DNA of 64,000 nt from Rhizobiales bacterium 64-17 (lineage in GTDB: Bacteria > Pseudomonadota > Alphaproteobacteria > Rhizobiales > Xanthobacteraceae), in contig MKWA01000015.1 in assembly GCA_001899285.1 (NCBI GenBank), forward strand, positions 1 through 64,000. Direction: 5' to 3'. The notes under the pieces were generated by a model, which saw nothing but the letters and a program-made list of their open reading frames with translations, had not been told where the DNA came from and made no database searches. This document shows, in pieces, positions 10,162 to 61,446 of this stretch (position 1 is its first letter; each line of letters begins with the position of its first letter). The position numbers and the translations under genes are program-made.

Positions 10162-10382
10162 CCTCATGGTGAGGAGCATCGCCATCAGCGCGTTTACGCG
10201 CGTCTTCGACGCGCTATGGCGATGCGTCTCGAACCATGGGGCGGGAGCGTGGCCGCCTCGTCCACCCATCTCGGGTTTACCCGAGATGGGATTCTTGAAT
10301 GCGCAAGTCGGCCAAGGCCGACTTGCGGTGACGCCCCGCCTACGCGCCATGCGCTTCGGCGCGGCTCCTCAGGATGAGGCGG
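10162..10382. repeat. Composite palindromic repeat, family C
   Basis: The element opens with CCTCATGGTGAGGAG, reaches CGTCTCGAACCATGGGGCGG, and ends with CGGCTCCTCAGGATGAGGCGG. The first and last blocks recur at 60521-60632 and, for the CTCCTCAGGATGAGG block, inside the helicase gene at 63128-63268. Two further perfect hairpins sit inside: CCCATCTCGGG/CCCGAGATGGG at 10264-10290 and GCAAGTCGGCC/GGCCGACTTGC at 10302-10325. With the family A copy that follows, it fills the gene-free stretch 10134-10517. Confidence 0.75.
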
Positions 10383-22738: not shown

Positions 22739-22746
22739 CCCTCAGC

Positions 22747-23162
22747 ATGTCAGCCCGCCTGTAAGCCGGGTTCTGTTCGCGGAAGACGCATACTCTTCGT
22801 CCGCGTGACGACCATTCCTCTGCACCGCCGGTTACCCGGCGTGTCGAGCAACCTACCCGGATGGCTGGTCCGGACGAACCTGGAGATCGCTCTCCGCGCC
22901 ATCCCTATTCGGTTTTGCTCCCGGTGGGGTTTGCCGTGCCGTTCGCGTTGCCGCGACCGCGGTGCGCTCTTACCGCACCGTTTCACCCTTGCCTGCCGCC
23001 GAAGCGGCCGGCGGTCTGCTTCTCTGTGGCACTGTCCCTGGGGTCGCCCCCGCCGGACGTTATCCGGCACCGTTCGTCCGTGGAGCCCGGACTTTCCTCC
23101 CCGGCACCCTTTCGGGGAACGCCCTCGCGGGCTCTGCCGAAGCGGCCGTCCAGCCGACTGAC
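22747..23162 (-). ncRNA. rnpB: RNase P RNA, bacterial class A
   Basis: The catalytic RNA of RNase P, which matures tRNA 5' ends. Reading the minus strand, it contains the universally conserved GAGGAAAGTCCGGGCTCC block near the 5' end, the AGGGTGAAAxGGTGCGGTAAG-type region in the middle, and ACAGAACCCGGCTTACAGGC at the 3' end. The ends were set by the P1 helix: 5' GTCAGTC pairs with 3' GGCTGAC. A CTTGAC-like -35 at 23193-23198 lies 17 nt before a weak TCATCT -10, giving a start near 23163. It lies downstream of ampD on the same strand. Confidence 0.95.
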
Positions 23163-58002: not shown

Positions 58003-58407
58003 ATGGAAATGCCCGCCAAGCTCGCTGACGTGACGCTCGCCGATGCCTCACTGGTTGAAACGCTGACGCCGCCATCCCAATCCGCGAATGACAAGCCGTC
58101 CCGCATTCGTCTGACGCGTGTGTTCGACACGGAATTGACGCGCATCATCGGCGAGGCGTTCGATGCCGTGTGGACCGAGGTGGTGAAGGATCCGCGCTAT
58201 TCGCGGGCGGAGCTGGAGTTCGCGCGCGGCTATCTTGCCGAGCGCATCATCGACCTGGCGCAGAAAGGCGAGGCCGATCCCGCACGGCTGCGCGCCGAAG
58301 GCTGCGCGCTGTTTCATCTGGTGCAGGCCGCGCAGGCGGAGGCCGGAACATCGTCGTCTGCCGCCGCGTTATCCCCGCACGGCGCGCCGGGTGACAACCG
58401 GCCGTAA
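58003..58407 (+). CDS. Conserved hypothetical protein
   Basis: A 134-aa protein with no family I can name. The middle is helical and well formed: RIRLTRVFDTELTRIIGEAFDAVWTEVVKDPRYSRAELEFARGYLAERIIDLAQKGEADPARLRAEGCALF. There is no signal peptide or membrane segment. Similar short helical proteins occur in rhizobia. Starts at 58003 or 58009 (both ATG) are possible; the frame is open from 57931. Confidence 0.55.
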   Translation: MEMPAKLADVTLADASLVETLTPPSQSANDKPSRIRLTRVFDTELTRIIGEAFDAVWTEVVKDPRYSRAELEFARGYLAERIIDLAQKGEADPARLRAEGCALFHLVQAAQAEAGTSSSAAALSPHGAPGDNRP

Positions 58408-58582
58408 CGGAGACGATCGACGCAGCTGATTTTGCCGGTTTCTGGCTGCGGCAACAACGCATCGGTACGCGTTTGATCTAACCCGTTCCCGGCGCGCTCC
58501 TTTCGTTTCTTTCCGAATGCTTCAGTCTCTCCCCCCATGCCCGCACATAGCCCGTCGAAGACGGGCGTGAACGCCCTGATGT

Positions 58583-59447: not shown

Positions 59448-60518
59448 ATGCAGACAGCCACCAGACCGGCGCTGACGGCGAAGAGCTATCCGGTCGACGA
59501 CTTCGCCGCCGCGCAGGAGTTCTTCCATTCCAACGGCTGGACCGACGGCCTGCCGGTGGTGCCGCCGACGGAGGACGCCATCGCGGCGTGTCTCGACTGG
59601 GCGATGATGCCGCCGGACCAGCTGATCGGCATCGAGCCGGTGCGCGCGCAGCCGATCACGGCGGAGAAGCTCGCCATCAACGCGGTGATGGCCGGCTGCC
59701 TGCCGATGCACTTTCCCATCGTCGCCGCCGCATGGCAGGGGATGCTGAAGGATGAGTTCCTGCTGCACGGCATCTCGTCGTCGACCGGCGGCTGCGCGGT
59801 GCTGGTCGTCATCAACGGGCCGATCCGGCTGGAGATCGGCGCGGCCTCGACCTTCAATGCGCTCGGCAACAGCGATCGCGCCACGTCGGTGATCGGCCGC
59901 GCCATTCGCTTGTCGCTGATCAATCTGATGGATGTGCGGCCGGGCGGCATCGATCGCTCGACGCTCGGCCATCCCGGCAAGTTCTCCTACTGTCTCGCCG
60001 AGGACGAGGAGGACATGACGTGGGAGCCGCTGTCGGTGTTTCGCGGCGTGCCGAACGACGGCACCTCGGCGGTGACGGTGATGGCGGCGCTGGCGCCGCG
60101 CCAGATCATGAACGAGTGGACCACCGATCCGAAGGAGATTCTCGAAACCTTCGCGGCGGAGATGCGCGCCAACCAGCGGCACTATTCGATCTATGGCGGC
60201 AACTACGCCATCATCATCCCGAAGCAGTTGCGCGAGCACATCCAGAACGCCGGCTGGTCGAAGCGCGACATCGCCGAATTCCTTTATGAGCGCGCGCGCA
60301 TCAAGCGCAAGGAATGGGCCGACGTCGGCAAGGCGGCGATCGTGCGGGACCGGCCGGAGAAGGTGCATCCGGCGCTGGAATCGCCGGACCATCTGCTGGT
60401 GATTGCCGCGGGCGGCCCGGCCGGCGGCTTCGGCGCGGTGATCCCGCCGTGGATGGGCTCGAAGACCAAGGCGGTGACGGTGCCGCTCGGCGTCTGCGTC
60501 GATTGCGAGCCCGGCTGA
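59448..60518 (+). CDS. Conserved protein of unknown function next to the selenoprotein
   Basis: A 356-aa soluble protein with no named domain. It opens with SYPVDDFAAAQEFFHSNGWTDGLPVVPPTEDAI, a segment I associate with uncharacterised proteins found beside UGSC selenoproteins, and has conserved-looking INAVMAGCLPMHFPIV, SSSTGGCAVLVVINGP and a C-terminal GVCVDCEPG with two Cys. No membrane helices are seen. The ATG at 59448 follows GGGGTGACG. It is likely functionally linked to the selenoprotein 224 nt downstream, although a palindromic repeat now separates the two. A redox role is only a guess. Confidence 0.7.
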   Translation: MQTATRPALTAKSYPVDDFAAAQEFFHSNGWTDGLPVVPPTEDAIAACLDWAMMPPDQLIGIEPVRAQPITAEKLAINAVMAGCLPMHFPIVAAAWQGMLKDEFLLHGISSSTGGCAVLVVINGPIRLEIGAASTFNALGNSDRATSVIGRAIRLSLINLMDVRPGGIDRSTLGHPGKFSYCLAEDEEDMTWEPLSVFRGVPNDGTSAVTVMAALAPRQIMNEWTTDPKEILETFAAEMRANQRHYSIYGGNYAIIIPKQLREHIQNAGWSKRDIAEFLYERARIKRKEWADVGKAAIVRDRPEKVHPALESPDHLLVIAAGGPAGGFGAVIPPWMGSKTKAVTVPLGVCVDCEPG

Positions 60519-60520
60519 CC

Positions 60521-60632
60521 TCATGGTGAGGAGCCCGGCGAAGCCGGGCGTCTCGAACCATGAGGTGTGCAACGGTCGGGCCGCCTCGTCCTTCGAGACG
60601 CGATCCTGCGGATCGCTCCTCAGGATGAGACG
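60521..60632. repeat. Palindromic intergenic repeat, family C, copy 2
   Basis: CCTCATGGTGAGGAG, hairpin CCCGGC-GAA-GCCGGG, CGTCTCGAACCATGAGG, then CCTCGTCCTTCGAGACGCGA, hairpin GATCC-TGC-GGATC, and GCTCCTCAGGATGAGACGG. The second half recurs as inverted copies inside the helicase gene (63128-63168 and 63222-63268). Confidence 0.8.
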
Positions 60633-60742
60633 GAATTGATCCTTCCCGTGGGGTGAACGTATCGGAATCTGTATTTGCGCTATCGCGCCGCACAGGCGGC
60701 AATTAAGCTCACAGACGGAAATCAAAGAACGGAGACCCGCCG

Positions 60743-61267
60743 ATGACGCTGCACGTGTTCGATCCGACCCATGAAGGCAAGACGGCGGGCTTCGCGCTCG
60801 CGCCGCGGCTCGACACGCTGCGCGGCAAGACCGTCGGCATCATCACCAACGGCAAGGAAGGCACCAAGGGCTTCTTCACCCATCTCGACCGCATGCTGCG
60901 CGATGACCTCGGCGCGGCGGAGGTGGTGTGGCGGCAGAAGAAGAACTACAGCGCGCCGGCCGAGCAGGAGATCATCGCCGAAACGCGCCAGTGGCACGCG
61001 GCGGTGACCGGCATCGGCGATTGAGGCTCCTGCTCATCGTGCAGTCTGCACGACTCCATTGCCGTCGAGAAACAAGGCGTCCCCGCCATCGGCGTGATGA
61101 CCGAACGCTTCACCAGCGCCGCCGCGTTGATGTGCAAGGTGCTCGGCATGCCGGACTACAAATTCGCGGTGATCGGCCATCCGATCTCGAGCGCCTCGGA
61201 TGAATTGCTCGGCGACTACGCGCGGGCGACGATTGAACAGATGAGGGCGGTGCTGCTGAGGGGGTAG
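60743..61267 (+). CDS. UGSC family selenoprotein (in-frame TGA = selenocysteine)
   Basis: Read with the TGA at 61022-61024 as selenocysteine, this gives 174 aa ending at TAG 61265-61267. The first 93 residues (TLHVFDPTHEGKTAGFALAPR..., ending TGIGD) lead into Sec94-Gly-Ser-Cys97, the defining motif of the UGSC family, and on to SSCSLHDSIAVEKQGVPAIGVMTERF and FAVIGHPISSASDELLGDYA, which are homologous to family members. The reading frame stays open for 80 codons after the TGA. The stem-loop at 61037-61053 fits a bacterial SECIS. GGAG lies 7 nt before the ATG. The family is a thiol/selenol protein of unproven activity, with the UxxC pair suggesting redox work. Automatic callers would stop at 93 aa or call it broken. 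Confidence 0.88.
61037..61053 (+). promoter_or_regulatory. Predicted bacterial SECIS element
   Basis: TCGTGCA (61037-61043), loop GTC, TGCACGA (61047-61053): a perfect 7-bp stem with G as the first loop base. The loop begins 19 nt after the TGA, inside the 16-37 nt window known for bacterial SECIS elements, which bind SelB. It lies within the coding sequence, as in all bacterial selenoprotein genes. Confidence 0.75.
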
Positions 61268-61287
61268 GGCGGCGCTTGTTTTTCTTT

Positions 61288-61428
61288 CCCTCTCCCGTTT
61301 ACGGGAGAGGGTGGATCGCGCGGAGTGAAACGAAGCGCGAGCCGGGTGAGGGGATTGTTGTCACGGTGAGACTGTGCCCTCACCCGCCTCGCTGGCGCTC
61401 GGCACCCTCTCCCGCAAGCGGGAGAGGG
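61288..61428. repeat. Palindromic intergenic repeat, family D
   Basis: CCCTCTCCCGTTTACGGGAG plus AGGG at the left and CCCTCTCCCGCAAGCGGGAG plus AGGG at the right, with GCGCGAGCCGGGTGAGGGG and CCCTCACCCGCCTCGCTGGC as an inner inverted pair. It lies between the selenoprotein and the helicase 3' end. Only this copy occurs in the window. Confidence 0.75.
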
Positions 61429-61446
61429 ATTTAACAGCGCGGCGCG

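Follow-up and report, generated by a model that had tools for sequence, protein, structure and literature searches.

The UGSC gene and its surroundings

The window (the whole stretch of 64,000 nucleotides that was analyzed) carries on its forward strand, at 60743-61267, a gene that, judging from its sequence, is an ordinary further member of the already known UGSC selenoprotein family. The frame opens with an ATG at 60743 and runs for 93 codons to a TGA at 61022-61024 (forward strand), then for another 80 codons to a TAG at 61265-61267, giving a protein of 174 aa including residue 94. This TGA is very probably the codon for Sec94, an assignment that draws on the Sec machinery of the genome and on Sec/Cys exchange across the family (see below). 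The same layout had been read in a preliminary description made from the letters alone, and our translation agrees with it. The codons directly 3′ of the TGA are GGC TCC TGC (Gly-Ser-Cys), and the Sec/Cys-Gly-Ser-Cys motif required of the family is present. The standard reading frame terminates at the TGA, and a standard translation would truncate the UGSC protein at codon 94.

When the TGA is read through, the protein matches the Pfam profile PF24696 (UGSC) with 165.4 bits (E 1.8e-48, residues 5-171), which passes the curated cut-off of 25. Scored separately, the first half (60 bits) and the second half (84.4 bits) match consecutive parts of that profile, which bears out the earlier proposal that they belong to one 174-aa protein. 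The NCBIfam model NF041046 (UGSC_fam) gives 122.7 bits for a query with Cys replacing Sec, slightly below its cut-off of 125. Nothing else notable sets the protein apart from the family as represented by PF24696 and NF041046, with which it shares a full-length match, the Sec-Gly-Ser-Cys motif, a TGA at the codon where homologues have it, and a SECIS-like hairpin. It is the sole UGSC match in the source genome (4.63 Mb in 26 contigs).

UGSC is, as the preliminary description stated, a real bacterial selenoprotein family, represented by PF24696 and NF041046 and described long ago (PMC2398784). The accessible portion of that ocean survey counts it among the commoner aquatic selenoproteins, with 255 sequences (PMC2398784), and the family is also named in excerpts of four other papers (PMC13188914, PMC7539508, PMC5029168, PMC9312934). 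The accessible portions of these five papers contained neither a function for UGSC nor a link to GrdB/PrdB that we could find; the Pfam clan may already record such a link.

Upstream, at 59448-60518 of the forward strand, lies a gene for a protein of 356 aa (hereafter, the partner); matches in relatives show that certain other genomes carry it as a fusion with the UGSC domain. The two genes are separated in part by dispersed-repeat-like sequence at 60519-60640 (not assigned to a strand; its end is approximate and was placed by eye), which was recognized by its recurrence in the window: the first 16 bases, CCTCATGGTGAGGAGC at 60519, have an exact copy at 10162 and copies with two mismatches at 10364, 63153, and 63222. 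On the 3′ side of the UGSC gene, an inverted repeat at 61287-61429 has 27-nt arms that are 93% complementary and a second inner pair, and looks like another palindromic element. Elsewhere in the window, Rfam models match the Rhizobiales sRNA Atu_At1 at 58382-58493 (87.8 bits) and RNase P class A at 22746-23161 (276.2 bits).

Conservation of the TGA codon and exchange with cysteine

Relatives were collected by scanning genome contigs for the peptide pattern SC[ST]SC[SCG][LM][HQ]D, and the close set discussed here comprises the best 80 of 576 confirmed relatives (55%-77% identity). Because the site of the pattern is 3′ of the Sec codon, the pattern is neutral between Sec and Cys, though residues 96-104 are fixed by it. 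Ranking by similarity to a Sec-form query may favor Sec forms among the best 80 of 576. It should also be noted that the rows are related by descent, so that a count of 81 of 81 (the window plus the close set) does not amount to 81 independent events.

TGA stands at the same codon in all 80 loci of the close set (best 80 of 576), which range from Hyphomicrobiales to Gammaproteobacteria according to their record titles. Base changes relative to the window, summed over these 80 loci, number 1474, 1090, and 2645 at codon positions 1, 2, and 3 before the TGA and 1933, 1522, and 2826 after it; given the third-position excess in both halves, both look like translated sequence. By this evidence (TGA throughout the best 80 of 576 and the third-position excess), the frame is not a chance match.

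More distant forms came from a panel of 100 relatives, 12 of which, the source genome included, gave 20 UGSC matches (the divergent set). At the Sec position these have 12 TGA and eight Cys codons, and nothing else. The preliminary description had suggested aligning the read-through protein with Cys versions of the family, and the outcome favors its reading: TGA or a Cys codon occurs in 20 of 20 divergent homologues, and TGA in the best 80 of 576 relatives. A tree of the divergent set implies at least four Sec/Cys changes, three of them by starred branches; the branches of this tree are long, seven of its forks are open, and every row was given Cys in the Sec/Cys column. Loci L016-L018 may share genomes with some of L041-L043.

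A SECIS-like hairpin after the TGA

A SECIS-like hairpin with a 7-bp stem forms in the window at 61037-61053 (forward strand), its first base being the 13th past the UGA; 61037-61043 pairs with 61047-61053, and the loop is GTC at 61044-61046. Conserved pairing accompanies the fold: all seven pairs are possible in 81 of 81 rows (here and in the rest of this paragraph, the window plus the best 80 of 576 relatives). Six of the pairs are invariant, and the other is G-C in 47 rows, G-U in 29, and A-U in five; the loop reads GTC in 55 rows and GTT in the other 26. The stem is part of the best fold in 78 of 81 rows, and the remaining three (L043, L046, L066) prefer another. Codon usage is constrained as well. 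Every one of the 81 rows encodes Ser101, inside the hairpin, by AGT, a codon that accounts for 56 of the 745 serines in the rest of these genes; codons 99, 100, and 104 are likewise unusually uniform. Mean codon diversity is 0.70 over the ten codons after the TGA, compared with 0.82 before and 0.89 after; as this ten-codon value is just moderately lower, the signal is located in the stem.

When the window itself was recoded synonymously 20000 times, the full set of seven pairs arose 1148 times; when the stretch is folded by itself, its z-score is -1.97, and six of 200 shuffles do equally well. Divergent Sec forms outside the close kin of the window have different stems at a similar distance: a stem with the loop GGUC occurs in L022, L026, and L028, and the sequence of L029 would permit it, its best fold being another. 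Among the eight Cys forms, L027 folds a hairpin at that site with GU in its loop and L019 and L025 fold interrupted ones; no hairpin was seen at that site in the remaining five.

Selenocysteine machinery and predicted decoding of the TGA

The source genome has selA, selB, selC, and selD, all within one 18-kb stretch. The profile matches are to TIGR00474 for selA (592 bits), TIGR00475 for selB (424 bits), and NF002098 for selD (498 bits), and the gene for tRNA-Sec (selC) scores 80 bits against a cut-off of 47. These are the genes for which the preliminary description had proposed a search, and each was found. The same stretch holds a second TGA-containing gene, fdhA, which scores 1389.5 bits with TIGR01553 when read through its own in-frame TGA.

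We therefore predict, with little doubt, that the UGA at codon 94 is read as selenocysteine. The codon would be decoded by SelB and tRNA-Sec, and decoding would be guided by the hairpin whose first base is the 13th after the UGA. The Sec reading was already given in the preliminary description and now has the support of the Sec machinery, the TGA/Cys alignment, and the conserved SECIS-like hairpin. It is very unlikely that suppression or near-cognate read-through inserts Trp or Cys at the TGA, given that the Sec machinery exists and that the conserved hairpin keeps a fixed distance from this codon; moreover, the eight divergent homologues that are without TGA all carry Cys, and none carries Trp.

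Eight genomes, the source included, have a TGA-bearing UGSC gene (G000, G014, G032, G041, G046, G056, G059, G091). SelA and tRNA-Sec were found in five of the eight (the SelA of G091 is cut at a contig end), and no SelA, SelB wing, or tRNA-Sec was found in the other three, G014, G041, and G056, which are 85%, 72%, and 99% complete, respectively. Because G014 and G041 are incomplete and the sel genes are clustered in the source genome, one missing contig could explain each of these two cases, and overall the absence of Sec machinery from the three genomes would be explicable by missing or misbinned contigs. As for G056 (L023, L026), a TGA-UGSC fusion gene without sel matches could reflect either a misbinned contig or a recent loss of the Sec machinery. 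Among the four genomes with Cys forms only, SelA is present in G094 and was not detected in G008, G016, or G050.

The three TGA-bearing relatives without detected Sec machinery, and the fact that the TGA closes the standard frame, speak for a pseudogene, that is, a Cys-type UGSC gene split by a nonsense mutation. We regard that explanation as extremely improbable, given that all 80 loci (best 80 of 576) share the TGA at this codon, that 80 intact codons follow it, that the hairpin is conserved, and that the source genome has the complete Sec machinery, and we retain the reading of the gene as a selenoprotein gene in what follows.

The partner gene

At E ≤ 0.001, the partner (59448-60518), a gene that the preliminary description does not mention, is matched by no Pfam or NCBIfam model. 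Of the 80 close loci (best 80 of 576), 78 have a match to it on the upstream side of UGSC, and the gap between the two has a median of 30 bases and is largest, at 792, in L076; the gap in the window is 227 bases. One of the other two loci, L089, is uninformative on this point because its UGSC match starts at base 2 of the contig; its genome has a more distant partner elsewhere, beside a UGSC gene of its own. The second, L109, is a TGA-UGSC locus for which the partner is absent from the 702 bases upstream, which carry other frames, and from the rest of the 11.2 kb. The sole partner match in the genome of L109 (L143) is more distant and adjoins another UGSC gene.

Of 100 relatives, 12 have UGSC, and exactly these 12 also have the partner. 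UGSC occurs at 20 places in them, and the partner gives 21 matches, of which two are pieces of a single gene in G041. (At this locus, L018, the partner gene is split across two frames, through either a frameshift or an error of sequencing.) The two are adjoining or fused at 19 of 19 divergent loci: in 10 the partner is a separate upstream frame, and in nine its domain follows UGSC without change of frame. L021, counted among the nine, is not a simple fusion, as its UGSC frame stops before the partner; the fused loci are L022, L023, and L026-L031. At L028 (G059), the frame after the UGSC-partner fusion resembles the start of selB by eye, and a SelB domain lies ∼3 kb off on the same contig. By these arrangements the partner is a near-constant companion of UGSC, with L109 the exception, and because the UGSC gene is almost always beside it, the two proteins are suggested to work as one enzyme.

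A comparable arrangement is given in the accessible part of the ocean survey, in which UGSC is fused to a domain called Unknown_1 (PMC2398784, Figure S1A). As in the fused loci listed above, UGSC is there joined to a second unnamed domain, whereas the two genes of the window are separate and in the opposite order. Unknown_1 is probably the same domain as the partner.

A structural model of the partner (pLDDT 85.3) found no convincing fold match with Foldseek. Class I fumarase ranked at the top of the Foldseek results (E 2e-3) and was rejected, despite that rank, at an hhalign probability of 0.3% against 10 fumarase rows. In the search for a GrdE/PrdA template to compare with the partner, PF09338 matched none of 190 genomes and none of the controls.

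Predicted fold and a proposed relationship to GrdB/PrdB

Structure predictions used alignments of 43 (UGSC) and 40 (partner) of the 80 close loci (best 80 of 576). The AlphaFold model of UGSC (pLDDT 89.1, pTM 0.84) consists of five alternating strand-helix units and has Sec94 between a strand (86-92) and a helix (95-110). Foldseek returned weak generic matches, the fold being a common one.

A distant relationship to GrdB/PrdB is indicated at the level of profiles. The PrdB/GRDB-like template comprised 11 rows from 12 loci fetched, with L122 left out, and hhalign placed UGSC on it with 84% probability over residues 73-172, Sec aligned with Sec. The profile score of 41.8 compares with a maximum of 18.4 among 60 column shuffles, 15.2 for the reversed profile, and 16.2 for the partner. 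After the Cys columns were changed to Ala, the score was 36.1 against a maximum of 21.8 (to which Ala-on-Ala matches may add slightly), with Sec still in register. Single PrdB-like rows scored from 15 to 40, and three of 11 exceeded the best of 69 unrelated proteins (26.0). As few single rows beat unrelated proteins, the link is good but dependent on the profile. UGSC thus resembles GrdB/PrdB in a remote profile similarity over residues 73-172, in the superposition of Sec on Sec, and in the UxxC spacing, and differs in that the window protein has no direct match to PF07355 (GRDB), none being listed at E ≤ 10. Among 11 PF07355 matches, nine have TGA at the Sec position; two PrdB-like Cys proteins (L127, L130) extend ∼250 residues past the PrdB-like part.

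Published opinion is different. The accessible text of PMC2398784 calls UGSC likely thioredoxin-like, as does PMC13188914 by listing, and the UxxC motif would suit a selenoprotein that is a thioredoxin-like thiol oxidoreductase unrelated to GrdB/PrdB, a reading that competes with the enzyme part of our interpretation only. We consider this unlikely, in view of the five alternating strand-helix units of the AlphaFold model and of a profile link to PrdB/GRDB that exceeds its nulls. Thioredoxin was absent among the 50 structure matches listed for the UGSC model, and could occur beyond them.

A possible two-component enzyme

In PrdB and GrdB, the Sec is thought to be catalytic. Tentatively, we infer that UGSC and its partner may form a Sec-dependent enzyme with two components, similar in kind to PrdB/GrdB. 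Such an enzyme might represent an undescribed class, distantly akin to component B of glycine and D-proline reductase and with a partner of unrecognized fold, for reductive cleavage or reduction in carboxylate/CoA-ester metabolism, a suggestion that we hold equally tentatively. The UGSC domain would be Rossmann-like and distantly related to the C-terminal portion of GrdB/PrdB, and its Sec94-x-x-Cys97 pair would sit at the junction where a beta strand gives way to a helix. It would act together with the protein of 59448-60518, as two components or, in some genomes, as one chain. A small metabolite could then undergo a thiol-driven reductive step, in which the selenol would be the nucleophile and Cys97 would provide the resolving thiol.

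It is also conceivable, if rather unlikely, that UGSC is a Rossmann-like selenoprotein whose Sec binds a metal or serves as a redox sensor instead of being the catalytic nucleophile, which would alter only the functional part of the interpretation. The partner has no detected relative, and the accessible literature on UGSC was found to give no function, both of which leave room for such a role. The UxxC spacing and the register with PrdB/GrdB, with their presumed catalytic Sec, argue against it.

Genes near the pair hint weakly at carboxylate and CoA-ester metabolism. Among 69 neighbors scanned, LysR regulators were counted 12 times, luciferase-like proteins and enoyl-CoA hydratases six times each, and members of the methylmalonyl-CoA mutase, CoA-transferase, and acyl-CoA dehydrogenase families twice each. 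Because the more distant neighbors of the pair vary, the substrate is a guess. Three loci have record titles that name strains and not MAGs, namely, Rhodopila globiformis DSM 161, Reyranella soli NBRC 108950, and Enhydrobacter aerosaccus ATCC 27094. These strains, together with the near-constant presence of the partner and the link to PrdB/GrdB, make the question of what UGSC does testable.
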